A DNA stretch of 64,000 nt from Streptococcus respiraculi (GTDB lineage Bacteria > Bacillota > Bacilli > Lactobacillales > Streptococcaceae). Shown here in pieces: positions 1 to 12,729 of the stretch; position 1 is the first letter of the stretch; each line of letters begins with the position of its first letter. Under the pieces are notes generated by a model. It was not told the origin of the DNA. It did not search any database and was given only the letters and a program-made list of their open reading frames with translations. A program made the position numbers and the translations under genes. The stretch is taken from the NCBI RefSeq assembly GCF_003595525.1, contig NZ_CP022680.1, forward strand, positions 391,001 to 455,000, given 5' to 3'.

Positions 1-570
1 GCTAGTGAACTGTTCGAAAGTGAGCAGTCAGAAATTGAAGGCTTAAAATCGAGAGTAGTAGAAATCGAAAGTGAATTGAGTGAGTTGGTTGAGGCAGCCA
101 AGGTAGAAGATAGCGAAGAATACAATGCTCTCTTTGATACCATTAAGAAAAATGATGAGGGAGAGCCACAAGATAGCTTTGATAATAAACTGTTAAACCA
201 ATCCCTGAAGCAAGTAGAACAATCCTCTGCTGAGTATACTCTTTTGAAAAAAGTTGTGGAGAACACCAAGGAAAAAACGACCATCAGCAAGTCCATTAAG
301 GTAAAAGAGCAAGAGTTGAAAGAACTCGTATCGGACCGTATTGAGAAATTAACGGATGAAGAAATCGACCGCCTTCTGTATAAAAAATGGTTTGGCAATG
401 TTGTCAAGAAGGCTGTGGAACTGGTTGAAACACCTCTTAAAGCTGAAATTGCCATTATTGATGAATTGGACAAGCGCTACGGTGAAACCTTAGATGACAT
501 GGACGCTGAAATTGCTAAGCTAGAAAAAGAACTGGAAGCCTTAATGAATGAATTGGTGGTGCTGTCATGA
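1..570 (+). CDS. hsdM: Type I restriction-modification DNA methyltransferase subunit HsdM, 3' end
   Basis: The frame is open from the first base and ends at a TGA at 568-570, so only the C-terminal ~189 residues are present. The protein is strongly charged and Lys/Glu-rich with heptad-like helices, as expected for the HsdM C-terminal region that packs on HsdS; the methylase catalytic motifs lie upstream of the window. Identity rests on position: it directly precedes hsdS and hsdR, and an ATG for an hsdS-like frame overlaps its stop. The start apparent at 76 is internal and not a real start. Confidence 0.85.
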   Translation, partial: ASELFESEQSEIEGLKSRVVEIESELSELVEAAKVEDSEEYNALFDTIKKNDEGEPQDSFDNKLLNQSLKQVEQSSAEYTLLKKVVENTKEKTTISKSIKVKEQELKELVSDRIEKLTDEEIDRLLYKKWFGNVVKKAVELVETPLKAEIAIIDELDKRYGETLDDMDAEIAKLEKELEALMNELVVLS

Positions 571-689
571 CAAAAATAGATAAGAACATTCCCAAACGTC
601 GCTTTAAAGAGTTCAAAAATGCTTGCGATTTTCTAGATACAAGAAAAAAATCGTCGGAAGTTGGAGGTGTTTTATGCCAAAACAATTAG
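567..689 (+). pseudogene. Truncated original hsdS start overlapping hsdM
   Basis: An ATG at 567 overlaps the hsdM stop (ATGA), the usual translational coupling of hsdM and hsdS. The 40-residue product begins with an HsdS N-terminus (KRRFKEFKNA) but then runs into the 131-bp repeat and stops at 689, before any target-recognition domain. I infer that this was the ancestral hsdS start and that it was cut off when the repeat array formed. The working start is now at 936. Confidence 0.6.
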
Positions 690-991
690 TACCTAAACGC
701 CGTTTTCCAGAATTTACGGACGCTTGGGAGAGAAAATCTCCAGTGGAGATTTTCTGCGATTTTCTAGATACAAGAAAAAAATCGTCGGAAGTTGGAGGTG
801 TTTTATGCCAAAACAATTAGTACCTAAACGTCGTTTTCCAGAATTTACGGACGCTTGGGAGAGAAAATCTCCAGTGGAGATTTTCTGCGATTTTCTAGAT
901 ACAAGAAAAAAATCGCCGGAAGTTGGAGGTGTTTTATGCCAAAACAATTAGTACCTAAACGTCGTTTTCCAGGATTTACGGACGCTTGGGA
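625..991 (+). repeat. 131-bp tandem repeat (2.8 copies) at the 5' end of hsdS
   Basis: Units begin at 625, 756 and 887. Each carries a GGAGG ribosome site, an ATG (674, 805, 936), codons for the HsdS N-terminus, and, in the first two units, a perfect 11-bp inverted repeat around a 3-bp centre (731-755 and 862-886). The third unit leaves the pattern at 991 and continues into the real hsdS. Because 131 is not a multiple of three, the reading frame rotates by unit, so the first two ATGs give only 48-residue peptides (674-820, 805-951). A diverged, inverted copy lies at 9301-9435. Confidence 0.9.
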
Positions 992-2168
992 ACAGCGGAG
1001 GTTTTCGGAGGTAGCTATAACTAGTAGAGGATTGACCTACAAACCATCTGATATATGTAAAGATGGTGTTCGCGTTTTACGTTCCTCTAATATAGATGAA
1101 GATAGATTTGTTTTAAAAGATGATGATGTTTTTGTGAAAAATAATGTAGTGAATATTGGTTATGCAAAAGAGCATGATATTCTTATCACTTCTGCAAATG
1201 GTTCATCAAGACTTGTAGGGAAACATGCAATTATAAAAGAAATCGCTGATGAACCAATTGTTCATGGTGGATTTATGTTAATTGCTTCAACTAAATATCC
1301 ATATTTTATCAATGCTTCTATGAGTTCCTCTTGGTATAAGAAATTTATTGATTTATTTGTATCAGGTGGTAATGGAGCTATTGGGAATCTTAATAAAAAT
1401 GATTTGGACAATCAAAATATTTTTATTCCGACTGAAGCTGAACAACAAAAAATCGGTGAGTATTTCTCTAACTTCGACCGCCTCATCACCCTTCATCAGC
1501 GTAAGCTTGACAAGTTAAAAAATGTCAAAAAGGCTTATTTGTCGGAATTATTCCCTGCTGAAGGAGAGCGTGAGCCAAAACGCCGTTTTCCAGGATTTAC
1601 GGACGCTTGGGAACAGCGGAAGCTGGGAAATATTCTTCAAGAGAGTAATATTCGTACATCGAATTTTATAAACAACCCATTATATAGTTTAACTATCGAA
1701 AATGGTGTCACTCCAAAGACAGAACGTTATGAAAGAAGTTCACTTGTAACAAAAACAGAAGACTTATTTAAAGTAGTTAAACCAAATGAGTTTGTTACCA
1801 ACCCTATGAATCTTAGATTTGGAGCACTTGGATATAATAAAAATGCCTTTAATGTAGCTGTTTCTGGATATTATGATGTGTTTTCGATTGACGACAATAA
1901 ATGTAGTGGATTTTGGAACGCATACTTTAAAACTCCTAAAACTATGAAAATTTTTGATGATGTCGCTACCGGTTCTCTTGTCGAAAAACGTAGAGTAAAA
2001 TATTCTACTCTCCAACAGTTAGACCTCTATATGCCGAATGCTTTAGATGAAAAAATTCAAATCGGAAGATGCATGAATCAAATCGACCGCCTCATCACCC
2101 TTCATCAGCGTAAGTTGGATAAGCTAAAAGATTTGAAAAAGGCCTACTTAAATGAACTATTCGTTTGA
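936..2168 (+). CDS. hsdS: Type I restriction-modification specificity subunit HsdS (expressed copy)
   Basis: A 410-residue HsdS, the normal length. It has an N-terminal conserved segment, target-recognition domain 1 (about residues 17-180), a central helical spacer ending near residue 215, a second copy of the conserved segment (KRRFPGFTDAWEQRK), recognition domain 2 (about 228-385) and a C-terminal helix. The start at 936 has GGAGG at 925-929. HsdS sets the DNA sequence recognised by both the methylase and the nuclease. Both recognition domains are duplicated downstream as silent cassettes, and the same 31-bp sequence ends both domains (1475-1505, 2084-2114), so domains could move between positions. 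Confidence 0.93.
   Translation: MPKQLVPKRRFPGFTDAWEQRRFSEVAITSRGLTYKPSDICKDGVRVLRSSNIDEDRFVLKDDDVFVKNNVVNIGYAKEHDILITSANGSSRLVGKHAIIKEIADEPIVHGGFMLIASTKYPYFINASMSSSWYKKFIDLFVSGGNGAIGNLNKNDLDNQNIFIPTEAEQQKIGEYFSNFDRLITLHQRKLDKLKNVKKAYLSELFPAEGEREPKRRFPGFTDAWEQRKLGNILQESNIRTSNFINNPLYSLTIENGVTPKTERYERSSLVTKTEDLFKVVKPNEFVTNPMNLRFGALGYNKNAFNVAVSGYYDVFSIDDNKCSGFWNAYFKTPKTMKIFDDVATGSLVEKRRVKYSTLQQLDLYMPNALDEKIQIGRCMNQIDRLITLHQRKLDKLKDLKKAYLNELFV
984..1506 (+). repeat. 523-bp direct repeat, copy 1 (HsdS recognition domain 1)
   Basis: This matches 5380-5902 in the same orientation over an equal 523-bp length. The encoded amino acids are identical. It starts at the shared 16-bp motif gcttgggaacagcgga and ends just after the 31-bp shared motif at 1475-1505. 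The two copies flank recognition domain 2 and hsdR. Confidence 0.9.
1604..2114 (+). repeat. 511-bp inverted repeat, left copy (HsdS recognition domain 2)
   Basis: This is matched in inverted orientation at 6858-7368 over an equal 511-bp length with the same encoded amino acids. It starts at the conserved gcttgggaacagcgga motif and ends at gtaag, the end of the 31-bp shared motif. The repeat pair brackets hsdR, the direct cassette and the recombinase. Confidence 0.9.
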
Positions 2169-2222
2169 TTTCAGCGTGTGTCCTGTAGGCATAACAGGAT
2201 ATAGAAAGGATGCAGAAAGTAT

Positions 2223-5200
2223 ATGAGAGATAAAAATGCCTCTGAGAAGGCCTTTCAGGAAAGTTTTGTAGCAGAATTAACAAAGTACAAGTGGCAAGCA
2301 CCGGATAAACTGAATGGAAATTTACAGAAAGTAACTGTCCAAGATTTGGTGAACAACTGGAGACAGGAATTGAACCGAATAAACGCCGATATTTTGGAAG
2401 GTGTTGCCCTTACTGATGCAGAATTTTCACAAGTTATGTCAAAAGTGAAACAAATTGCCAATAGCTATGAGGCGGCCAAAATCTTATCTATGGAAGGTTC
2501 AATTGGTAAGCTTGACGGTATTTATCGTGATTCTCATCCAGATATAACACGCCAGCAGATTACGTTGACACTATTAAAAAAAGCCCAAGTGAGTGGTGGG
2601 GATTCGAGTTATCAGGTGGCACGTGAAGTCTGGTCAGAAAGCGGAAATCGTTTTGACTTGGTTCTGTTAATCAATGGTCTGCCACTAATCAATATCGAAC
2701 AAAAGCGCAGTGATGTGTCACTTGAGGAAGCCATAGGGCAATTTATGCGTTATTACCGCGATGGCGACTATACCAATAACTTTATGGCTTTTTCACAAAT
2801 GATGATTGCAACTTCCGAGATTGAAACACGGTATTTCGCTACACCAAAATCAATCAATGATTTTAATCCGTCTTTTGTTTTTCATTGGTCTGTTACGCAA
2901 AAAGATCAAGATGGCAATCCGATGGGGCAACGTGTAGTAACAGACTATCGTGACGTAATTGAGCACCTACTCATGGTTCCAATGGCCCATCAAATGGTTG
3001 GTGACTATCTTATTATTGATGAAGACCCAGTGAATGAAGAAAATCGTCGTCATATGCTGATGCGCCCCTATCAAGTCCATGCTTTACAGGCTGTGGAAAA
3101 GGCTGCCTTTGGATGGGATAATCCAGACAAAATCCCACATGGGGGATTTGTTTGGCATACGACTGGTTCTGGAAAAACAATCACGAGTTTTAAAACAGCT
3201 CAGTTTTTATCGACACGAACAGAGTTTGATAAGGTCGTATTTTTACTGGATCGTAGAGATTTGGATGAACAGACCTCTAAAGCCTTCAAGGCTTATGCTA
3301 CCTATGAATCGGTGAATGTGGATGATACGAAGAGTACCTATCAGTTACGAAGACAGCTTACCGCGGCCAAGAGCGGTATTGTTGTGACAACGACCTTCAA
3401 ATTGAGTTTTTTGGTTAAAGATTTAATCGCTGCACAAGATACTAGCCTAGCAGATAAAAAAATCCTTTTTATCATTGATGAAGCCCATCGGACAACGATG
3501 GGAGATATGATGGGAATGATTAAAGAGTATTTCTTTAAAAACGGCTTATTCTTTGGATTTACGGGTACCCCTCTCTTTGATGAAAATAAGGTCAAAGGAA
3601 AAATCAACGAGCGTAGCGAGGTCATCAATACAACTGAAAAATTATTTGGTCCTCTCCTTCATCAGTACACGATTGATGAAGCGATTGCGGATGGCAATGT
3701 ATTAGGATTCCATGTCGATTACATCAATACAGGAGAATTTAGAAGTTACGAAGATTTGCGTGAGCAACTGATTGATACAGTAAGTCAGAAAAAGCCAGAG
3801 CTTGGTAAAAAAGCCCTTCAACGACAAGTCCAACAATGGTCGGAATTAGAAGTTGAAAAAAATGCGGTTAAAGAAGGCCTCTTAGTCTACCAAGATAAAA
3901 CACATATTCCACGAGTGGTGGAGGAGATTCTTTCAAGCTGGCAGGAGCAATCACAAAGTGGAGAGTTTAATGCTATGCTGACAGTTGCTTACAAAGAACG
4001 TGTCATTGCCTACTATCATGAATTTAAAAAGCAGATTGCTGAAACATACCAAGTTGGTGAGCATAGCCCTAATATTGCCATGACCTTTAGCTTTGGCAAT
4101 GAAAATGATCCAGAAAATGTCACGAGAGATGTTATTGAAGAACTGTTTTCTGATTATGAAAAGATGACGGGCGTCTTATTTGTAGCTGGAGACAAGGAGA
4201 GAGGCGAACAAGCTTATTTTGAAGACGTAACAGATCGCTTCAAACGAGGAGGTAGTGGTAGAAATCCTAAAAACTTGGACATCATTATCGTAGCTGACCA
4301 ATTATTGACTGGTTATGATGCCAAACGCTTGAATACCCTGTATGTGGATAGACGACTGGAATTACAAGGGTTAATACAAGCCTATTCACGAACCAATCGT
4401 GTATTTGGCTCTGCCAAAGAATTTGGAACGATTATCAACTTCCAATACCCACGCATCACAGAAGAAACCGTTAATGCAGCTCTGAAATTATACGGTAGTG
4501 GCGGTCAAAGTAGTCGTGTTCTTGTTGAAAAATACGAAGATGCTGTAAGGCTGTTAAACCAATGTGTTGATGGATTGATTGTAGCACTACCAAATCCAAC
4601 GGACTGGATTCAACTTCAGGTTGATGAGGAAGAAAAAGAAAGCTTCAAGCAAGCTTTTAAAGAAACTGCTAAGCAATTAAATCGTGTGGAACAGTACTAT
4701 GAGTTCTCTTGGGATGACGATTTATTTGGCATAACAGAGCATACCTGGTTGCAATATATTGGTGCGTATAAGAATTTATTCCCGCGTGAAATAGGACCAG
4801 TTTCTGATGAGATTAGTCCATTAGCAGGACGCACAAAATTGCAAGGTTCCCAAATTATTAACGCCCAAAGTCTGTTGACATTGATTGGTGAGAAAACGCA
4901 AAATAAAGATGGCTATATGGTCATCAATGATGGGAATTTAGTTTTAATTTTAGAACAAATTCAAGAGTTGAGTAATATGGGTGAAGATGAGCTAGCCGAG
5001 GCTTTAAAAACGTTTATCAATGAAGAACTCGTTACCGGTCATCTTTCAGCAACACTTGACTTTGATGAATCCTTTAAGAAATGGCAAGATGAGCGACAGT
5101 TTAAAGTCATTCAGCAGTTTGCTACGGAATGGGGAATTGATAGTCGCTTACTTCAAAAATCATTGAAAGAATTTCAACTGAACAAAGCAGATGAGATTCC

Positions 5201-5339
5201 TTATAAATCCGAGATCATGACGACACTCAATCCAGCTAGTGCTACAAACCAGTTTTCAGGCAAAAAATTACTACTTAATATGGAGTTGAATAAAATCCTA
5301 CCCCAGTGGATGCTGGAAACCAAACAAAAGTATAAATAA
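2223..5339 (+). CDS. hsdR: Type I restriction endonuclease subunit HsdR
   Basis: A 1038-residue motor and nuclease subunit that cuts unmethylated DNA after ATP-driven translocation. The N-terminal nuclease fold shows an Asp at about residue 144 and an E-x-K at about 159-161. A Walker A motif (TTGSGKT) is near residue 315 and a DEAH box near 420, followed by the second helicase lobe and a C-terminal HsdM/HsdS-binding region. It lies 54 bp after hsdS and is probably read from the same upstream promoter. The gene sits between the arms of the 511-bp inverted repeat, so inversion would take it out of the operon. Confidence 0.95.
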   Translation: MRDKNASEKAFQESFVAELTKYKWQAPDKLNGNLQKVTVQDLVNNWRQELNRINADILEGVALTDAEFSQVMSKVKQIANSYEAAKILSMEGSIGKLDGIYRDSHPDITRQQITLTLLKKAQVSGGDSSYQVAREVWSESGNRFDLVLLINGLPLINIEQKRSDVSLEEAIGQFMRYYRDGDYTNNFMAFSQMMIATSEIETRYFATPKSINDFNPSFVFHWSVTQKDQDGNPMGQRVVTDYRDVIEHLLMVPMAHQMVGDYLIIDEDPVNEENRRHMLMRPYQVHALQAVEKAAFGWDNPDKIPHGGFVWHTTGSGKTITSFKTAQFLSTRTEFDKVVFLLDRRDLDEQTSKAFKAYATYESVNVDDTKSTYQLRRQLTAAKSGIVVTTTFKLSFLVKDLIAAQDTSLADKKILFIIDEAHRTTMGDMMGMIKEYFFKNGLFFGFTGTPLFDENKVKGKINERSEVINTTEKLFGPLLHQYTIDEAIADGNVLGFHVDYINTGEFRSYEDLREQLIDTVSQKKPELGKKALQRQVQQWSELEVEKNAVKEGLLVYQDKTHIPRVVEEILSSWQEQSQSGEFNAMLTVAYKERVIAYYHEFKKQIAETYQVGEHSPNIAMTFSFGNENDPENVTRDVIEELFSDYEKMTGVLFVAGDKERGEQAYFEDVTDRFKRGGSGRNPKNLDIIIVADQLLTGYDAKRLNTLYVDRRLELQGLIQAYSRTNRVFGSAKEFGTIINFQYPRITEETVNAALKLYGSGGQSSRVLVEKYEDAVRLLNQCVDGLIVALPNPTDWIQLQVDEEEKESFKQAFKETAKQLNRVEQYYEFSWDDDLFGITEHTWLQYIGAYKNLFPREIGPVSDEISPLAGRTKLQGSQIINAQSLLTLIGEKTQNKDGYMVINDGNLVLILEQIQELSNMGEDELAEALKTFINEELVTGHLSATLDFDESFKKWQDERQFKVIQQFATEWGIDSRLLQKSLKEFQLNKADEIPYKSEIMTTLNPASATNQFSGKKLLLNMELNKILPQWMLETKQKYK

Positions 5340-5373
5340 TCAAAGGAGATCAAGAGAATTCTTGGTCTTTTTT

Positions 5374-5907
5374 GCTTATGCTTGGGAACAGCGGAGGTTT
5401 TCGGAGGTAGCTATAACTAGTAGAGGATTGACCTACAAACCATCTGATATATGTAAAGATGGTGTTCGCGTTTTACGTTCCTCTAATATAGATGAAGATA
5501 GATTTGTTTTAAAAGATGATGATGTTTTTGTGAAAAATAATGTAGTGAATATTGGTTATGCAAAAGAGCATGATATTCTTATCACTTCTGCAAATGGTTC
5601 ATCAAGACTTGTAGGGAAACATGCAATTATAAAAGAAATCGCTGATGAACCAATTGTTCATGGTGGATTTATGTTAATTGCTTCAACTAAATATCCATAT
5701 TTTATCAATGCTTCTATGAGTTCCTCTTGGTATAAGAAATTTATTGATTTATTTGTATCAGGTGGTAATGGAGCTATTGGGAATCTTAATAAAAATGATT
5801 TGGACAATCAAAATATTTTTATTCCGACTGAAGCTGAACAACAAAAAATCGGTGAGTATTTCTCTAACTTCGACCGCCTCATCACCCTTCATCAGCGTAA
5901 GCCATAA
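5374..5907 (+). pseudogene. Silent hsdS cassette, recognition domain 1 copy (direct)
   Basis: An hsdS fragment with one recognition domain identical in protein sequence to that of the expressed gene. It ends with the 31-bp motif at 5871-5901 and a TAA at 5905. It lacks the second half of HsdS. An ATG-like start at 5362 has no convincing ribosome site, although hsdR transcripts could read through. The recombinase starts 15 bp after its stop. A half-size HsdS from here cannot be excluded, but a storage cassette is the simpler reading. Confidence 0.8.
5380..5902 (+). repeat. 523-bp direct repeat, copy 2
   Basis: This is the second copy of 984-1506 in the same orientation. Homologous recombination between the copies would remove 4,396 bp, including the second half of hsdS and all of hsdR. 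Confidence 0.9.
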
Positions 5908-5922
5908 CAAGAAGGGGTATAT

Positions 5923-6846
5923 ATGAATAAAATTACAAGAGAAACCTTATTACATGACTATTTTCAACAATGGACAAAATTATTTAAAGAAGGAGCAGTT
6001 CGTCCTGTTACCCTTGAAAAATATCAAAACAATTACCAGCACTTAAAAGCTATTGTACCGAATCTGAAATTATGTGAACTCGATCGAACGGTTTACCAGC
6101 AAATATTAAATCAATATGCACAAACGCATGAGAGGCAAACGGTTATTGATTTCCACCATCAGATTAAAGGAGCAGTACTAGATGCGGTAGATGAAGGGTT
6201 AGTTGATAGAGATCCGACAAGAAAAGTTATTTTTAAAGGTAAGGCACCTAGAATAAAGAAGGTTAAGTATTTGAACCAATTTGATTTACATAGTGTCTTA
6301 GCTGACTTGAATTTAGAACTGCAGATCAATTGGGATTGGTTAATATTACTGATTGCCAAAACAGGATTGCGATTTTCGGAAGCTCTTGGACTAACTCCGT
6401 CTGATTTCAATTTCGTACAACAAAACATATCTGTTACGAAAACATGGGATTACAAGGGTAAAGGTGGATTTTTACCAACTAAAAACAAGTCTTCAATACG
6501 AAAAGTCCAGATTGATTGGCAATTAAGTATGCAATTCCAGCAATTAATAAAAGACATACCAGAAGATATGCCTATTTTTGTAAACGGTCCAATTTGTAAT
6601 TCAACACCAAATAAATGGTTGGAGAAGCATTGCAAGAACGTAGGGGTACCAGTGATATCAATACATGGGTTGCGACATACTCATGCGTCTCTTTTAATGT
6701 ATGCAGGAGTATCTATTGCAAGTGTATCTAGGCGACTGGGGCATTCTTCTATTACTACAACGCAAAAGGTTTATATGCATGTCATCACTGAGCTTGAAAA
6801 TCAGGATAACGACTTGGTTATGCGCTACCTGTCAGGCTTGAGTTAA
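5923..6846 (+). CDS. Tyrosine recombinase (XerC/CreX-like) of the hsdS locus
   Basis: A 307-residue phage-integrase-family enzyme. It has an N-terminal SAM-like DNA-binding domain and a catalytic domain with R150 (TGLRFSEA), a probable K187, H248-x-x-R251 (HGLRH), H274 (LGHSS) and nucleophile Y284 (VYMH). All the catalytic residues are present, so it should be active. The start at 5923 has a gaagggg ribosome site. It lies between silent hsdS cassettes, as recombinases do in known inverting type I systems of streptococci (CreX/PsrA at the pneumococcal SpnIII locus). The likely role is site-specific inversion of hsdS segments. Its stop overlaps the stop of the convergent cassette. No phage genes are nearby. 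Confidence 0.9.
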   Translation: MNKITRETLLHDYFQQWTKLFKEGAVRPVTLEKYQNNYQHLKAIVPNLKLCELDRTVYQQILNQYAQTHERQTVIDFHHQIKGAVLDAVDEGLVDRDPTRKVIFKGKAPRIKKVKYLNQFDLHSVLADLNLELQINWDWLILLIAKTGLRFSEALGLTPSDFNFVQQNISVTKTWDYKGKGGFLPTKNKSSIRKVQIDWQLSMQFQQLIKDIPEDMPIFVNGPICNSTPNKWLEKHCKNVGVPVISIHGLRHTHASLLMYAGVSIASVSRRLGHSSITTTQKVYMHVITELENQDNDLVMRYLSGLS

Positions 6847-7368
6847 GACAAAGAAGGCTTACGCTGATGAAGGGTGATGAGGCGGTCGATTTGATTCATG
6901 CATCTTCCGATTTGAATTTTTTCATCTAAAGCATTCGGCATATAGAGGTCTAACTGTTGGAGAGTAGAATATTTTACTCTACGTTTTTCGACAAGAGAAC
7001 CGGTAGCGACATCATCAAAAATTTTCATAGTTTTAGGAGTTTTAAAGTATGCGTTCCAAAATCCACTACATTTATTGTCGTCAATCGAAAACACATCATA
7101 ATATCCAGAAACAGCTACATTAAAGGCATTTTTATTATATCCAAGTGCTCCAAATCTAAGATTCATAGGGTTGGTAACAAACTCATTTGGTTTAACTACT
7201 TTAAATAAGTCTTCTGTTTTTGTTACAAGTGAACTTCTTTCATAACGTTCTGTCTTTGGAGTGACACCATTTTCGATAGTTAAACTATATAATGGGTTGT
7301 TTATAAAATTCGATGTACGAATATTACTCTCTTGAAGAATATTTCCCAGCTTCCGCTGTTCCCAAGCG
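6843..7368 (-). pseudogene. Silent hsdS cassette, recognition domain 2 copy (inverted)
   Basis: A reverse-strand hsdS fragment starting at the shared gcttgggaacagcgga motif (7352-7367) and carrying a recognition domain identical in protein sequence to the second domain of the expressed hsdS. It ends after the 31-bp motif (6858-6888) with four extra codons and a stop at 6843-6845. It has no ribosome site or hsdS-type start; the open frame runs back into the 3' end of the ATPase gene in another frame. It converges on the recombinase gene with overlapping stops. Confidence 0.8.
6858..7368 (-). repeat. 511-bp inverted repeat, right copy
   Basis: This is the inverted partner of 1604-2114. Recombination between the arms would invert about 4.7 kb (2115-6857) that includes hsdR and the recombinase. 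Confidence 0.9.
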
Positions 7369-7426
7369 CTAGTCTTACAACTAAAAATTCTATTTAGATT
7401 GCATGGTTTTCTTGAATTTCTAATTC

Positions 7427-8635
7427 TTATCTTTCTAGTAACCAATCTATAATATTTTTTTTCTGAATACCATTATAGTTTGCAGATGGCTGAATGGTAT
7501 CCATTGTTAGAAGAAATTTCGGAAATTGATCTTTAATGGCCTCTAGCGGTCGAAGTTCTCGGTCCAATGTTTCTGGAGCAAGCGTTGTTTCGCTTACTTG
7601 ATAATAAGCATAATGACCAAAATCGGTTACAACCACAAAGTCAACTTCATATTTGTCGATATTGCCAACATAAACTTGAGAGTATCTACGTCTCAACTCC
7701 AGATAAACAATATTTTCCAATATATGGCCGATATCTTCTTTGTGATCTGGCAACAAGAGACGTCTAAATCCTAAATCAACAGGATAATACTTTTCCAACC
7801 GCTGTAGCAAGGCTCTGCCTTTCACATCAAAGCGTGGAACGGCATAAAAAAGTAAGCTATTGGTCAATGTTGTTAAATAATTTTCCAAAGTAGCATGGGA
7901 TAAGGAAACGCCTTGGCTAATGAGGGTATTACGGATTTTATTAGTCGATACTAGGCTTCCTACACTACTGAGAAGAGTCCGTACAATGCGCTCGATTATA
8001 GTAGGATTTGGATTCCCTAATCGTGTGACAATATCATTTAAGAGTATAGAATGATATATTCCTCTTAGATAGTCGATTTTTTCAGCGTAAGACGATGTTT
8101 GAAGCAAATAAGGAAACGCGCTAAATAGATAATCATTAAACCATTCTATTCTGCTCTTGTGCTCGGGGATATTTTGACCGGATAGATATTCCTCAAATGA
8201 TAACGGAAGAATCTCTATTTCAACATACCGACCTGTCAAATTTGTTGCTAACTGACTGCTCATAAAATATGCATTTGATCCAGTCAAATAGAGATCTACA
8301 TTTTGAGAAATAAACAAACTATCTGCTACTAGTTCAAATTGCTCAACATGCTGAATTTCGTCTAAAAAGATATAATATTTTTTATCCTCTACCAATAATT
8401 CTGTTATGTAAGTATGCAATGCCCTAAAGTTACGTAAGTCGTAAAAACTCAGGTCCTCAAAATTGATGGATATAATTTGATTTTCGTTCACTCCTTCTTT
8501 TAACAGTTCCTCTTTAAAAAGTTGGAAAAGAACGGACTTACCTGCACGTCGGACACCAGTTACTACCTTGATAATTTGACGGTCTCGATGTCTTCTAAGA
8601 AACTCCAAATAAAATGGTCTTTGAATATAGTTCAT
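7427..8635 (-). CDS. AAA-type ATPase with DUF4143 C-terminal domain
   Basis: A 402-residue protein with Walker A GVRRAGKS (27-34), Walker B YIFLDE ending at residue 93, an AAA_14-like N-terminal half, and a C-terminal DUF4143-like domain with an Asp/Val-rich nuclease-like core (YEVDFVVV). The start at 8635 has a TGAGGT ribosome site and its own strong promoter. The same frame is open upstream into the inverted hsdS cassette, giving a 671-codon frame, but I read the two as separate. Members of this family are common, poorly understood, and often carried as accessory genes. It sits between two inverted hsdS cassettes, so it travels with the array; a role in it is not shown. Confidence 0.8.
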   Translation of the reverse strand: MNYIQRPFYLEFLRRHRDRQIIKVVTGVRRAGKSVLFQLFKEELLKEGVNENQIISINFEDLSFYDLRNFRALHTYITELLVEDKKYYIFLDEIQHVEQFELVADSLFISQNVDLYLTGSNAYFMSSQLATNLTGRYVEIEILPLSFEEYLSGQNIPEHKSRIEWFNDYLFSAFPYLLQTSSYAEKIDYLRGIYHSILLNDIVTRLGNPNPTIIERIVRTLLSSVGSLVSTNKIRNTLISQGVSLSHATLENYLTTLTNSLLFYAVPRFDVKGRALLQRLEKYYPVDLGFRRLLLPDHKEDIGHILENIVYLELRRRYSQVYVGNIDKYEVDFVVVTDFGHYAYYQVSETTLAPETLDRELRPLEAIKDQFPKFLLTMDTIQPSANYNGIQKKNIIDWLLER

Positions 8636-8653
8636 AATAGTTACCTCAGATAT

Positions 8654-8682
8654 AGTATAACCCAAATACAAATTATTTTCAA
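8654..8682 (-). promoter_or_regulatory. Promoter of the DUF4143 ATPase gene
   Basis: On the minus strand, TTGAAA (8677-8682) and TATACT (8654-8659) are separated by exactly 17 bp, about 20 bp upstream of the ATPase start. This near-consensus sigma-70-type promoter supports independent expression of the ATPase. Confidence 0.75.
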
Positions 8683-8788
8683 ATATTTGGAAATAACGAA
8701 CTATTTTTGGGTCTTTTTCTAATTTTTTAAAAATAATATTGAAAATTTTTGATGTCCCATACAAAAAGTAGCCAAATAAGTAGAAAAA

Positions 8789-9356
8789 CTTACGCTGATG
8801 AAGGGTGATGAGGCGGTCGAGATGAGTAAAATACTTCGCAATTTGTTTCTGTTCAGATAGGGATGGCATCAAAATATCCATATTCGCCATCTGCTTTCCA
8901 GAGACCTCGACAAAAGTAGAACCGGCTCCAACTGCCTCACCATATTTTTTCAGTTCTGGTGTTCTGGAGAAAATAAAGTAAGAATCAAGTTTATTTTCAT
9001 GAGGAATAATAGACTGAAATCCCTGATTAGTACACGCTGTTTTTCGCAGTATTGCTGTGTTTCCGATACCTGCTCTTGAAGTAAAAAGAACAGTTCCAAC
9101 TGGTAACATTTTGGCAGAGCTTTTTTCAAAACCGAACTTTGTAACTTTTCTTTCACTGCCTTCGAGATAAATCTGTTTACCAATCTCAGCAGGAGTATAC
9201 CAATCTATATCGCCATCCCAATAATCTGAAACGTTAATGCTTGGAGTTCCTCCTCCACAAATATCAGCAACGTCCCCCAGCTTCCGCTGTTCCCAAGCAT
9301 AAGCATTTTCGAACTCTTTAAAGTGATGTTTGAGTACTAATTGTTGTGTCTTAAAG
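8789..9356 (-). pseudogene. Silent hsdS cassette with a third, distinct recognition domain (inverted)
   Basis: On the minus strand this has a conserved HsdS N-terminal segment, the 23-bp 5' motif (9276-9298), a recognition domain unlike either domain of the expressed hsdS, and the 31-bp 3' motif (8789-8819). The position that is ATG in the expressed copy reads AAG here, so the hsdS start codon is missing while the ribosome-site sequence remains. After the 31-bp motif the frame runs on without a stop into the ATPase gene. It looks like a stored alternative specificity for the first domain position. Confidence 0.8.
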
Positions 9357-9435
9357 CACCTCCAACTTCCGCTGATTTTTTCCTGTATGTAGAAAATCGC
9401 AGAAAACCTCCACTGGAGATTTTCTCTCCCAATCA
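9301..9435 (-). repeat. Diverged inverted copy of the 131-bp hsdS 5' repeat
   Basis: On the minus strand this follows the unit found at 625-991: gcttatgattgggag, the palindrome (9401-9425, with one mismatch), gcgattttcta, the ggaagttggaggtg segment, and then the HsdS N-terminal codons. It therefore mirrors the tandem array at the other end of the locus and marks the likely outer boundary of the invertible region. Confidence 0.75.
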
Positions 9436-9527
9436 TAAGCATTTTCGAACTCTTTCTTCATTGGGTGCTTTTGTTAATTATTCTCTTTGTTATTTCCGAT
9501 GTTTACATACCTACACTTCACAAACTC

Positions 9528-9536
9528 TGCTATAAT
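9528..9536 (+). promoter_or_regulatory. Extended -10 promoter of the glycerate kinase gene
   Basis: TGC-TATAAT gives an extended -10 about 35 bp before the start codon. A -35 element at the normal distance is not clear. Confidence 0.45.
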
Positions 9537-9571
9537 AATGGTAAATTGTAGCTATCTAGTGAGGTAATCAG

Positions 9572-10615
9572 ATGAAAATAGTGAGTGCAATCGATTCGTT
9601 TAAGGGGGCAGCGACTTCTGCGGAGTTAAACCAGGCGGTCAAGGAAATGGTGGAGGAAGTTCTTCCAGAAACGGAGGTGGCGACTTTTGCAATCGGAGAC
9701 GGCGGCGAGGGGACCTTGGAGGCTTTGGCCGAGGCACTTGATGGGGAGTTGATTTCTGTTTCGACTGTGGATTTGTTGGAGCGTCCGATTGAGGCTTCCT
9801 ATTTCTTGTCGGGTCAGACGGCATTTATTGAGGCGGCATCGGTGATTGGCATTGATAAGATACATCCGACACCAGCAACCGTAGAGGTGGCGACCAGTTT
9901 TGGCTTGGGTGCTGTGATTCGAAATGCTTTGAGTCGTTCTTGTGAAGAAATCGTCCTCACATTAGGCGGAACAGGAACATCGGATGGTGGCAGAGGTTTA
10001 CTGGATAGTCTGACGGAAGAAGACAAAGAGCAGTTGCGTCGAGTCAACCTTATTGGTCTAACAGATGTGAGAAATGTCTATGCTGGATCAGAAGGTTATG
10101 CGCGTATTTTTGGTCCGCAAAAAGGAGCAAATCAAACACAAGTAGAAGCGATGAATAAGGCAGCTTTTACTTTTGTGCAGACGATAAAAGAAGAGTTAGA
10201 AATTGATCTGCAAGCTATTCCAGGGACGGGGGCAGCTGGCGGTTTAGGTGGTGCACTTGTAGTCTTGGGGGGAGAGCTGAAGGCAGGCTTTCCATTTGTG
10301 GCGCAAGCAATTGGACTAGCTCAAGCCATACAAGGGGCAGATTTGGTCATTACGGGCGAGGGACGCTTGGACAGTCAAAGTCTCAATGGTAAAGTACCTG
10401 TAGGTGTAGCTGATGTAGCCCGTTCTGCTGGTGTTCCGACAATCGCCATTTGCGGTAGCGTAGCGACAGATGTGACGGAATTTGGCGATTATTTCTTAGC
10501 GACCTTTTCGATTCAGACAGGAGTTTATTGTCTGGAAAAGGCTATGAAAAAAGAAGTCACTTTAGAGAATGTCCGTTTTGTAGTGAAAAATATCCTTCGA
10601 AGTCGTTTTCTGTAA
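9572..10615 (+). CDS. Glycerate kinase (GlxK/GarK family)
   Basis: A 347-residue cytosolic enzyme that phosphorylates glycerate with ATP, feeding it into lower glycolysis. It opens with the family signature (SAIDSFKGA) and GDGGEGT, and has the central LGGTGTSDGG and GTGAAGGLGG glycine loops and ITGEGRLDSQS near the C-terminus. The length is usual. The start at 9572 has GAGGT upstream. It stands alone between the hsd locus and a convergent lipoprotein gene. No partner genes for glyoxylate or glycerate metabolism are adjacent. Confidence 0.93.
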   Translation: MKIVSAIDSFKGAATSAELNQAVKEMVEEVLPETEVATFAIGDGGEGTLEALAEALDGELISVSTVDLLERPIEASYFLSGQTAFIEAASVIGIDKIHPTPATVEVATSFGLGAVIRNALSRSCEEIVLTLGGTGTSDGGRGLLDSLTEEDKEQLRRVNLIGLTDVRNVYAGSEGYARIFGPQKGANQTQVEAMNKAAFTFVQTIKEELEIDLQAIPGTGAAGGLGGALVVLGGELKAGFPFVAQAIGLAQAIQGADLVITGEGRLDSQSLNGKVPVGVADVARSAGVPTIAICGSVATDVTEFGDYFLATFSIQTGVYCLEKAMKKEVTLENVRFVVKNILRSRFL

Positions 10616-10664
10616 AAGAAAGTTAAAAATCGGTGCTATCAGCTAACCATTGAACAATGGGATG

Positions 10665-10717
10665 AAAAAAGGCTTCAGAACAGTCTTTTTCGGAGAATGG
10701 TCTGAAACCTTTTTATT
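10665..10717 (+). terminator. Terminator between the glycerate kinase and lipoprotein genes
   Basis: Imperfect stem ggcttcagaac / ggtctgaaacc (10671-10681 and 10699-10709), with an A-run on the left and a T-run on the right, so it can serve both convergent genes. Confidence 0.7.
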
Positions 10718-10744
10718 TTAGCTATTGTTTCTAATTCTTGGTAG

Positions 10745-11881
10745 TTAGTCCTCTACCCGATAGAAGACTTCTTGGGCGAGAATATCTGCGGGCATGAGGT
10801 ATTGAGTCGAGAAGAGGCGGTCTTTGGATTTGTCGGTGGGGTCCTCTGCATTTTCTGCGATTGGTGTGATGGCAACTCCTTTAGGGATAAAGACAGTTGA
10901 AACAATTGCAGATGCCATAGCATTTGGATTTCGGATGCCAGCCATGAGTTGTCCATTCTCAATTTTGGCATAGTTCAAATTGACATAGTAATTTCTATCT
11001 GGCACATCTTGGTAGTTGACTGTTCCGTCTGCTTGGATGGTCAGAACTCTTCCTTTGCCGTTTTTCCAAGTACCTGCAAGACTTGAGAAATCGCCAGTTG
11101 CTACGGCATTGATGTCCATGCTTTTTCCAGCGGTATCTGTAGCAGATGCAGGTTTTTGCGGTGTTTCAAAAGATGCCCAGTTGAGAGCCACTAAGTCAAG
11201 CTCTTCTGTTTTTGATTTGCCACATAGCTGGTCTAGTTTAATTGGACCAAGCTGAAATTCGTTTTGATCGATTTGCTTCGGTTGGGTACTATCTGCAGAA
11301 AATTGGTAAAGTGTTGCGGTACCTTCTCCCGTTCCAGAACTCCAACTAGCGGCAACAACATCGCCATTCTGATAAATCCTAAAGGCGTTTCTAGCTCCGC
11401 CATGACCAGCAACAAAACCTTCTGATAAGAGGTTAGGTGTTTTGTTATCTAAATAGTAAAGAGCGACTGGAAAAATTTGCTGATCCTGTTGGAAGGAGCC
11501 GACCAGTAACTCATTTTGTCCGTCTTGATTGACATCAAGAAAAGTATAGCGCAAGCGATCTGGAGAGTATAGGGCACTCTCGATTACCCAAGAATTGAGT
11601 TCGATATTTAGGCTGCCCAGTAATTCTTGGATGTGGGCGATGTTTGTATTATAGGTAGCACTGTATTCGAGTATTTTTTGATAGTCTTCAAAGACACTGG
11701 CATAAGATTTTTTATCGTCTTCTGGGGTTGTTTTTTTGACTTCGGAAGAAGTAGCTGTTGAGTGGCTTGTTTGCTCTGGTGTGCTAGGTTGACTTGTTTT
11801 GTTGGTCGTACAAGCAGTCAGTAGTGTACCGGTCAATAAGCTAATTAGAGCAATATGTGATAATTTAGCAGTCTGTTTCAT
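10745..11881 (-). CDS. Predicted lipoprotein, possibly DUF6287-containing
   Basis: A 378-residue protein with a lipoprotein signal peptide (hydrophobic segment and lipobox LLTAC), a Ser/Thr-rich linker, a middle domain with a calcium-like DVNQDGQNELL loop, and a C-terminal SLAGTWKNGKG module resembling the streptococcal DUF6287 domain. The start at 11881 has AAGGAGAG upstream; the longer open frame reaching 12262 has no ribosome site and crosses the divergent promoter. The function is unknown. It should be anchored to the outer face of the membrane. The domain name is from memory and needs a profile search. Confidence 0.8.
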   Translation of the reverse strand: MKQTAKLSHIALISLLTGTLLTACTTNKTSQPSTPEQTSHSTATSSEVKKTTPEDDKKSYASVFEDYQKILEYSATYNTNIAHIQELLGSLNIELNSWVIESALYSPDRLRYTFLDVNQDGQNELLVGSFQQDQQIFPVALYYLDNKTPNLLSEGFVAGHGGARNAFRIYQNGDVVAASWSSGTGEGTATLYQFSADSTQPKQIDQNEFQLGPIKLDQLCGKSKTEELDLVALNWASFETPQKPASATDTAGKSMDINAVATGDFSSLAGTWKNGKGRVLTIQADGTVNYQDVPDRNYYVNLNYAKIENGQLMAGIRNPNAMASAIVSTVFIPKGVAITPIAENAEDPTDKSKDRLFSTQYLMPADILAQEVFYRVED

Positions 11882-11921
11882 AGGCCTCTCCTTTGTATGA
11901 ATAGGTGCATAACTGACTTCA

Positions 11922-11930
11922 TTATAGCAC
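11922..11930 (-). promoter_or_regulatory. Extended -10 promoter of the lipoprotein gene
   Basis: On the minus strand the sequence reads TGC-TATAAT about 40 bp before the start codon at 11881. The -35 element is weak. Confidence 0.45.
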
Positions 11931-11969
11931 AAAAAATACAGATAATCTGCCCAGTATCCTATATTAAAA

Positions 11970-11998
11970 TTTACAGATAATTTAAAGCGTGTTATAAT
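11970..11998 (+). promoter_or_regulatory. Promoter of the ECF transporter operon
   Basis: TTTACA (11970-11975) and TATAAT (11993-11998) with a 17-bp spacer, close to the sigma-70 consensus. It leaves an untranslated leader of about 130 nt before the first gene. Confidence 0.75.
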
Positions 11999-12040
11999 AG
12001 TCAAAACGATGCCTGTTGGATAATAGATCGATAAAATTTG

Positions 12041-12075
12041 CTCTTCTTGGTAGGGTGTTACCCGTTGAAGAAGAG
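12041..12075 (+). promoter_or_regulatory. Hairpin in the leader of the ECF operon
   Basis: Arms ctcttctt (12041-12048) and aagaagag (12068-12075) enclose a second short stem gggt/accc, giving a stacked hairpin. There is no T-run after it, so it is not a standard terminator. No known riboswitch consensus was recognised. Confidence 0.5.
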
Positions 12076-12135
12076 ATACTAAAGGCAATAATAAAGAGGA
12101 TTTATGAGGAATTCTCAGTAATGGTGGAGAAGATG

Positions 12136-12729
12136 ATGAAGCAATTAAAAGTGAAAGATTTGATGGTGATAGGGGCTTTTGCGGCTCTCTACTTTCTATG
12201 CGTGGGCCTGGGGACCTTGGTGGCAGCTCTATTTGATCGTTCGGGTAATATGATGTATGCACCAGCTTTTTCAGCTATTTTAGGTGGACCAGTTTATATG
12301 CTCTTGGTCGCTAAAGTCGGGAAATTTGGCTCAATTAGTCTAGTAAGTGCCGTTATGGCCTGCTTCTTTTTTATGTCTGGCTACATGACAGCAGCTTTTT
12401 TGCCAAGTCTAGTTTTCGGTATCTTAGGAGATGTGATTGCAAGACAGGGACAATACAAGCAAAAATGGCTTAACCTTGTGAGTTTCATCGTTTTTTCTTT
12501 TGGAAATTTAGGGCCAATCATTCTCATGTGGTTGATGAAAGATGCTTATGAGGCAAATCTTTTAGCGCGAGGGAAATCTGCGGAATATATCGCTCGTGTC
12601 ATGGTGGATTTCACGCCTGCCAACGTGCTAGGCTTATCTGCAACTATCATTGTTGGGGCCTTGATTGGAGCTGTTATAGGACAAAAAATGGTAGATAAAT
12701 CCTTCAAAAAATCGGGGTTGCTGCAATGA
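12136..12729 (+). CDS. ECF transporter substrate-binding (S) component, Trep_Strep/MptD-like
   Basis: A membrane protein of about 197 residues with five or six hydrophobic helices, resembling the Trep_Strep integral membrane family that acts as an ECF S component. It binds an unknown small substrate in the membrane and works with the T and A genes that follow. I chose 12136 because GGAG lies 6 bp upstream (12126-12129). ATG at 12121 or 12133 is possible. The frame back to 12016 would place codons in the leader hairpin. Its stop overlaps the next start (ATGA, 12726-12729). Confidence 0.8.
   Translation: MKQLKVKDLMVIGAFAALYFLCVGLGTLVAALFDRSGNMMYAPAFSAILGGPVYMLLVAKVGKFGSISLVSAVMACFFFMSGYMTAAFLPSLVFGILGDVIARQGQYKQKWLNLVSFIVFSFGNLGPIILMWLMKDAYEANLLARGKSAEYIARVMVDFTPANVLGLSATIIVGALIGAVIGQKMVDKSFKKSGLLQ

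Follow-up and report, generated by a model that had tools for sequence, protein, structure and literature searches.

Several type I restriction-modification (R-M) systems related to the one described here have been studied elsewhere. In SsuCC20p of Streptococcus suis CC20, which adjoins rpsI and rplM (PMC5198162), switching depends on the recombinase of the locus and stops on its loss (PMC10790761), and the first account reports no S-subunit repeats and no movement between the target recognition domain (TRD) positions TRD1 and TRD2. SpnIII, or cod, of S. pneumoniae (recombinase CreX/PsrA) has three unequal inverted repeats of 15, 85 and about 300 bp; switching at the 15-bp repeat depends on the locus recombinase, and the longer repeats recombine without CreX and without RecA (PMC6620402). 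In SpnIV, or tvr, the recombinase (TvrR) moves TRD cassettes by way of short core repeats, and excised circles reintegrate (PMC6265443). Domain movement (DOMO) describes S genes of the form x-TRD1-y-x-TRD2-y in which the same TRD may stand in the first or the second position and TRD duplication occurs (PMC3077401). Here we describe a locus at the left end of a 64,000-nucleotide stretch of Streptococcus respiraculi (bases 391001-455000 of contig 1, hereafter the window; genome of 2.06 Mb in 2 contigs). Its anatomy and its experimentally studied relatives support well its reading as a putative type I R-M switch with a recombinase of its own, and we consider it likely that this recombinase drives exchange at short shared motifs, so that each of three TRDs (A, B and C) could be placed in the first or the second half of the one hsdS that is expressed.

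The gene order is rplM-rpsI, hsdM, hsdS, hsdR, silent TRD A, recombinase, silent TRD B, a DUF4143 gene and silent TRD C, the hsdR, hsdM and hsdS genes of the type I R-M system being intact and side by side. The expressed hsdS (936..2168, + strand, 410 aa, an open reading frame with Pfam support) carries TRD A in its first slot and TRD B in its second, in blocks at 984..1506 and 1604..2114 (both +). Silent A (5380..5902, +) is identical to the first block over 523 bp with 0 mismatches and in direct orientation, and silent B (6858..7368, -) is identical to the second over 511 bp, again with 0 mismatches but inverted. In both pairs identity ends at the edges of the bounding motifs, beyond which not one further base matches. 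Silent C (8789..9298, -), recognized like the others by sequence comparison, is the sole cassette that differs from the expressed TRDs and is not in use. A reading made earlier from the sequence alone (the sequence-only reading) had presented three silent cassettes as alternatives; three are present, but two of them duplicate expressed TRDs, so the locus holds three distinct TRDs and only C is an alternative. The tyrosine recombinase gene among the cassettes (5923..6846, +, 307 aa) is intact, as that reading had proposed, with a Pfam match and all of the R, HxxR, H and Y motifs, which we take to be the catalytic ones.

Each of the five TRD copies starts with the 16-bp motif GCTTGGGAACAGCGGA (984-999, 1605-1620 and 5380-5395 on the + strand; 7352-7367 and 9283-9298 on the - strand) and ends with a 32-bp motif (1474-1505, 2083-2114 and 5870-5901, +; 6858-6889 and 8789-8820, -), with zero mismatches. 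Every motif coordinate of the sequence-only reading holds in both orientations; its 3′ motif was placed correctly and is 32 bp long rather than the claimed 31 bp. Allowing up to 1 mismatch, the 16-mer occurs 5 times in the whole genome, always exactly and always at this locus, and the pattern in reversed letter order gave 0 matches genome-wide. The cassettes measure 522 (A), 510 (B) and 510 bp (C), and all five copies are in frame and free of stops; since every cassette is open and a multiple of 3, any TRD fits either half of hsdS. A 5′ motif unique to the locus, cassettes in frame and identity that ends at the motifs all count in favor of motif exchange. Across 20 loci examined, 50 of 52 cassettes were in frame and open, silent ones included, in a search that took no cassette from L061, L067 or L069 and one from L068, and missed two tandem cassettes of L065. 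Genome-wide, the Pfam model Methylase_S has 3 matches, every one inside the locus; the model misses TRD B, so a B-like TRD elsewhere in the genome could escape it.

Beyond this genome, the motifs resemble each other more within loci than between them. The 5′ motif showed 0.84 mismatches within a locus against 1.99 between loci (20 loci, 66 copies), and the 3′ motif 2.64 against 5.30 (15 loci, 51 copies), with 0 of 2000 permutations reaching the observed value for either motif; these figures are to be read with the facts that sites were picked by a mismatch limit to the S. respiraculi motif, a choice that favors the test, that a site in L061 (13895), which lies at a distance from the TRDs, is probably a chance match, and that duplicated TRDs in three loci raise the within-locus likeness. 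The comparison used 20 of 28 loci, omitting L019, L056, L059, L060 and L066 and the repeat records L050, L051 and L054. In S. pacificus, for example, the 5′ motif has the form GCTTGGGAACAACGTA in all 4 copies, and in the S. suis contigs and the congeners L052 and L053 it is mostly GCTTGGGAACTGCGGA. Repeated exchange within loci predicts just such a trace of homogenized motifs, as judged from these alignments.

When set beside the described systems, the locus is of a known kind, in agreement with the earlier suggestion that similar phase-variable loci exist in streptococci, yet it differs in a tested feature from each of SsuCC20p, SpnIII and tvr. SsuCC20p shares with it hsdM, hsdR, one working hsdS, extra TRDs with a tyrosine recombinase among them and the position next to rpsI and rplM; in S. 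suis 10581, a published SsuCC20p carrier from which four parts are missing, HsdR is 80% and the recombinase 88% identical to the S. respiraculi proteins. The S. respiraculi locus is related to SsuCC20p and probably works alike. Unlike SsuCC20p, it carries the 16-bp and the 32-bp motif at each of its five TRD copies and also has the DUF4143 gene, and the 14-bp inverted repeat of SsuCC20p (TAAATCATCATTTA / TAAATGATGATTTA) was not found with up to 2 mismatches in positions 1-9600 of the window or in 5 related loci, nor as an exact match in 27 loci scanned. Like SpnIII, it has a tyrosine recombinase of its own and additional hsdS sequence in inverted orientation. Whereas the SpnIII repeats are unequal and its published gene list places hsdR and hsdM ahead of the hsdS genes, the two slots share a single motif pair here and hsdR lies inside the recombining stretch. 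The conserved 10-bp CreX core given for SpnIII, ATTATGGGAA, has no exact match in positions 1-9600 and its 1- to 2-mismatch sites there are not at the motifs; the S. respiraculi 5′ motif does share its TGGGAA. TRD cassettes, short repeats and a recombinase are common to this locus and tvr, but the tvr repeats are all in one orientation whereas two of the five motif pairs are inverted here, and where tvrAT precedes tvrR, only 20 bases separate silent TRD A from the recombinase gene. As in DOMO, the same x and y repeats surround both TRD positions of hsdS; unlike DOMO, for which the excerpts describe inference from allele comparison and unknown machinery (PMC3077401), silent cassettes and a recombinase are present.

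In the mechanism that we favor, the tyrosine recombinase would act on the short motifs that bound each TRD on its 5′ and 3′ sides, and TRD A, B or C could enter either slot to give up to nine hsdS alleles, of which A-B is the present one. At least some transfers would not be conservative inversions but duplicative events, by sister-chromosome exchange, by conversion, or through a circle that is excised and reintegrated. New alleles would change the methylation and restriction targets and with them the methylome. Should hsdR share a transcript with hsdM-hsdS, inverting the stretch between the B copies would disconnect hsdR and leave the methylase unchanged; a promoter scan, itself weak (37 sites found against 36.7 expected), listed none in the interval from hsdS to hsdR. 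A published definition of recombination-driven phase-variable loci looks for an inverted repeat of at least 20 bp and 100% identity between hsdS and other DNA within 30 kb (PMC7394358), and the locus fits it with inverted pairs of 511 bp and of 32 to 34 bp. The silent cassettes seem to be without a start of their own, A lying behind a terminator-like hairpin predicted 3′ of hsdR (5341..5374, +) and C lying beside a start module with AAG in place of ATG.

Reciprocal intramolecular swapping conserves the set of TRDs, so the duplicates are not expected from inversion alone. Copying or exchange between chromosomes is the source that we favor; sister-chromosome exchange, circle excision and reintegration, or conversion can each make duplicates. 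Duplicated TRDs occur in 3 of the 20 loci, namely those of S. respiraculi, S. pacificus and L065. In S. pacificus the second expressed TRD is repeated as a silent cassette before the recombinase, the two copies differing at 1 of 510 positions, around the last base of the motif. L065 (G082) has three tandem identical TRD cassettes with a 576-base period at 10516-12144, beside a recombinase, and its expressed TRD is near-identical to them. Separately, in the HsdS proteins P0001-P0004 the first and second halves contain one and the same TRD, about 82% identical to TRD B, which is a sign of duplicative domain movement elsewhere. A search of the open-access literature for duplication or gene conversion of silent hsdS TRDs found only PMC3077401.

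Among the alternatives, a locus that only inverts, by reciprocal exchange at the motifs as in SpnIII and with TRD duplicates that are old or accidental, is possible but clearly less probable. Inverted motif pairs do exist, SpnIII switches mainly by inversion according to PMC4948785 and PMC6620402, the SpnIII locus of strain G54, described there as deleted in part, has a duplicated TRD 1.1, and 17 of the 20 loci have no duplicate. Such a locus fits poorly, however, with two expressed TRDs that are both duplicated, in opposite orientations, without a mismatch and with edges at the motifs, or with the similar duplicates in S. pacificus and L065.

TRD movement without the recombinase, through homologous or illegitimate exchange or transformation with the DNA of relatives, the recombinase having another role or being a passenger, is unlikely. 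It draws on domain movement in S genes with repeats at the TRD edges (PMC3077401) and on the CreX-independent exchange at the long SpnIII repeats (PMC6620402), the latter meaning that a local recombinase need not do all of the recombination. Against it, the recombinase gene lies 20 and 11 bases from its two flanking cassettes and in 6 of 7 clade loci has a pair of tail-to-tail TRDs around it (the contig of the seventh ends in the 3′ motif), and the loss of the recombinase stops switching in SsuCC20p (PMC10790761). A frozen locus, or duplicates created by the merging of several arrangements in assembly, is quite unlikely: there is a single assembly, its second contig shares at least 6.4 kb with the chromosome so that other unresolved repeats may be held in it, and the contig of one relative (L015) starts and stops inside the 3′-motif repeat, but the frames of the silent cassettes are preserved and the motifs are homogenized within loci.

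Several points nevertheless weigh against recombinase-driven motif exchange as we propose it. The 5′ motif encodes AWEQR and the 3′ motif DRLITLHQRK, conserved HsdS residues, so part of the motif likeness is expected from protein constraint. The species is represented by one assembly, which shows a single arrangement and no circle and offers no strain pair, and its two exact repeats (523 bp direct, 511 bp inverted) could stem from a one-off event or from the merging of a mixed culture in assembly. Duplicated TRDs are limited to the three loci named above, the published CreX core (exact) and the SsuCC20p repeat (up to 2 mismatches) are absent from positions 1-9600, and the SpnIII work offers a precedent for recombination, at its longer repeats, without CreX or RecA.

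Another lead concerns the start of hsdS. Upstream of the first TRD, 2.8 tandem copies of a 131-bp start module (624..991, +) place ATG codons at 674, 805 and 936, and hsdS translation starts at the ATG at 936, in the last unit. A full unit consists of TTGGGAGAG, two hairpins, a GGAGG ribosome site, the ATG and the codons that run as far as the following GCTTGGG; hairpin 1 is missing from the first copy, and the module ends at the core of the TRD 5′ motif. The probable former hsdS start, the ATG at 567 (567..689, +), overlaps the hsdM stop and now reads into a 40-aa open reading frame, and a diverged inverted module lies beside TRD C (9312..9436, -). Related units stand at or near the same place in six other loci (L052, L053, L060, L061, L066 and L067), in tandem in L061, L066 and L067 as in S. 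respiraculi. In an alignment of 13 units 92.3% of cells pair and both partners change in 6 pairs (a number matched in 1 of 500 shuffles), and 0 of 500 shuffles reach the covariation score, the structure having been drawn from the very sequences tested in a region that is also coding. Pairing falls to 65.4% or less when the hairpin partners are slid. Counter to the hairpins, one pair of hairpin 1 fails in 6 of the 13 units, and in L052 and L053 this hairpin is degenerate. The score of hairpin 1 is that of a terminator-like structure. When up to 3 mismatches are allowed, 17 of 279 congeners contain the palindrome by itself, in many cases not near hsd genes; the module has no Rfam match, and in the open-access literature no tandem leader or attenuator at a type I restriction hsdS was found. 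It is doubtful that the whole would work as a copying switch, in which the silent TRDs would be a kept store written duplicatively by the recombinase, within the motif bounds, into either hsdS half, the start module would be a further cassette that resets specificity and hsdS-hsdR expression, and the 511-bp inverted copies around hsdR would let restriction flip off while methylation specificity is kept.

Two features that the sequence-only reading had thought distinctive turned out to be ordinary. It had stressed hsdR (2223..5339, +, 1038 aa) between expressed and silent copies and an embedded DUF4143 ATPase (7427..8635, -), and its naming of both genes, like that of hsdS, is supported by Pfam (AAA_14/DUF4143 for the ATPase). 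The order hsdM-hsdS-hsdR-TRD-recombinase-inverted TRD is found in all four complete clade loci (the present one, L013, L052 and L053); L014 and L016 have other gene orders and L015 is a partial contig. Close homologues of the ATPase (70-89% identity) occur in 29 of 278 other Streptococcus genomes. The position of hsdR being common to the clade and the DUF4143 gene widespread, neither is special. We rejected the DUF4143 gene as part of the switch on account of these homologues, and it is probably an unrelated insertion; 11 of their neighborhoods, fetched at 3.1 to 4.2 kb each, had no hsd, TRD or recombinase match.

Relatives of the recombinase (E 1e-60) were found in 26 of 284 Streptococcus genomes, S. 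respiraculi counted in. The S. pacificus recombinase is 94% identical, that of a Peptoniphilus 92%, and those of two S. suis contigs and of the congeners L052 and L053 are 88% identical. The best 20 plasmid matches listed reach 62.5% and the best 20 phage matches listed 60.9%, the phage tally also counting one record at 80-90% outside the listed rows; a scan of IMG/VR with the recombinase returned one stretch and no relative. In Peptoniphilus sp. KCTC 25270 (L014), which has the 92% identical recombinase, hsdM appears as two matches 1.5 kb apart and rpsI adjoins; this locus probably reflects a recent transfer between distant genera. The Peptoniphilus rpsI beside hsdM has 62% identity, and because rpsI and rplM adjoin SsuCC20p as well, a shared insertion site next to rpsI is suggested. 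In S. respiraculi rplM-rpsI, both named from their translations, lie upstream of hsdM, whose 3′ end occupies 1..570 (+) and whose gene starts at base 389003 of contig 1, mostly upstream of the window (855 aa in all; Pfam N6_Mtase and HsdM_N). In 12 congeners the right-flank glycerate kinase gene had no match (E 1e-60), which left no empty-site junction to compare; a search further along for att-like repeats of 13-16 bases from the end of rpsI found none.

Other observations concern the databases and the assembly. Among the matches listed (120 in each of two listings), no HsdS carried TRD A, B or C above 92% identity; other strains may have other TRDs, or the database may have a gap, and we did not use this as evidence. 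The recombinase falls in a database cluster (P0121) of 3 sequences from 2 contigs, of which the longest has 2,041,601 bases (our own contig has 2,037,500). Of the 120 recombinase relatives listed (P0121-P0240), 71 are at least 400 aa long and most carry Methylase_S together with Phage_integrase, for example in Ligilactobacillus salivarius; these long relatives are apparently in-frame fusions between a silent TRD and the recombinase. The second contig (26,370 bases) shares at least 6.4 kb at 99.96-100% with the chromosome (contig 1, 263585-270000; contig 2, 8972-15436), an integrase included, perhaps as an excised or duplicated mobile element.

Type I specificity switches have so far been described mostly as reciprocal inversion or as excision and reintegration. 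If our reading of the S. respiraculi locus is true, one short motif pair that frames every TRD in both slots and orientations, together with stored exact copies, would allow any TRD to be placed in any slot. This is a useful variant for specialists and no great surprise, but the locus would offer a test of whether duplicative transfer of cassettes can be driven by a tyrosine recombinase. Whether transfer is duplicative decides how many methylomes a clone can have and whether its repertoire erodes.

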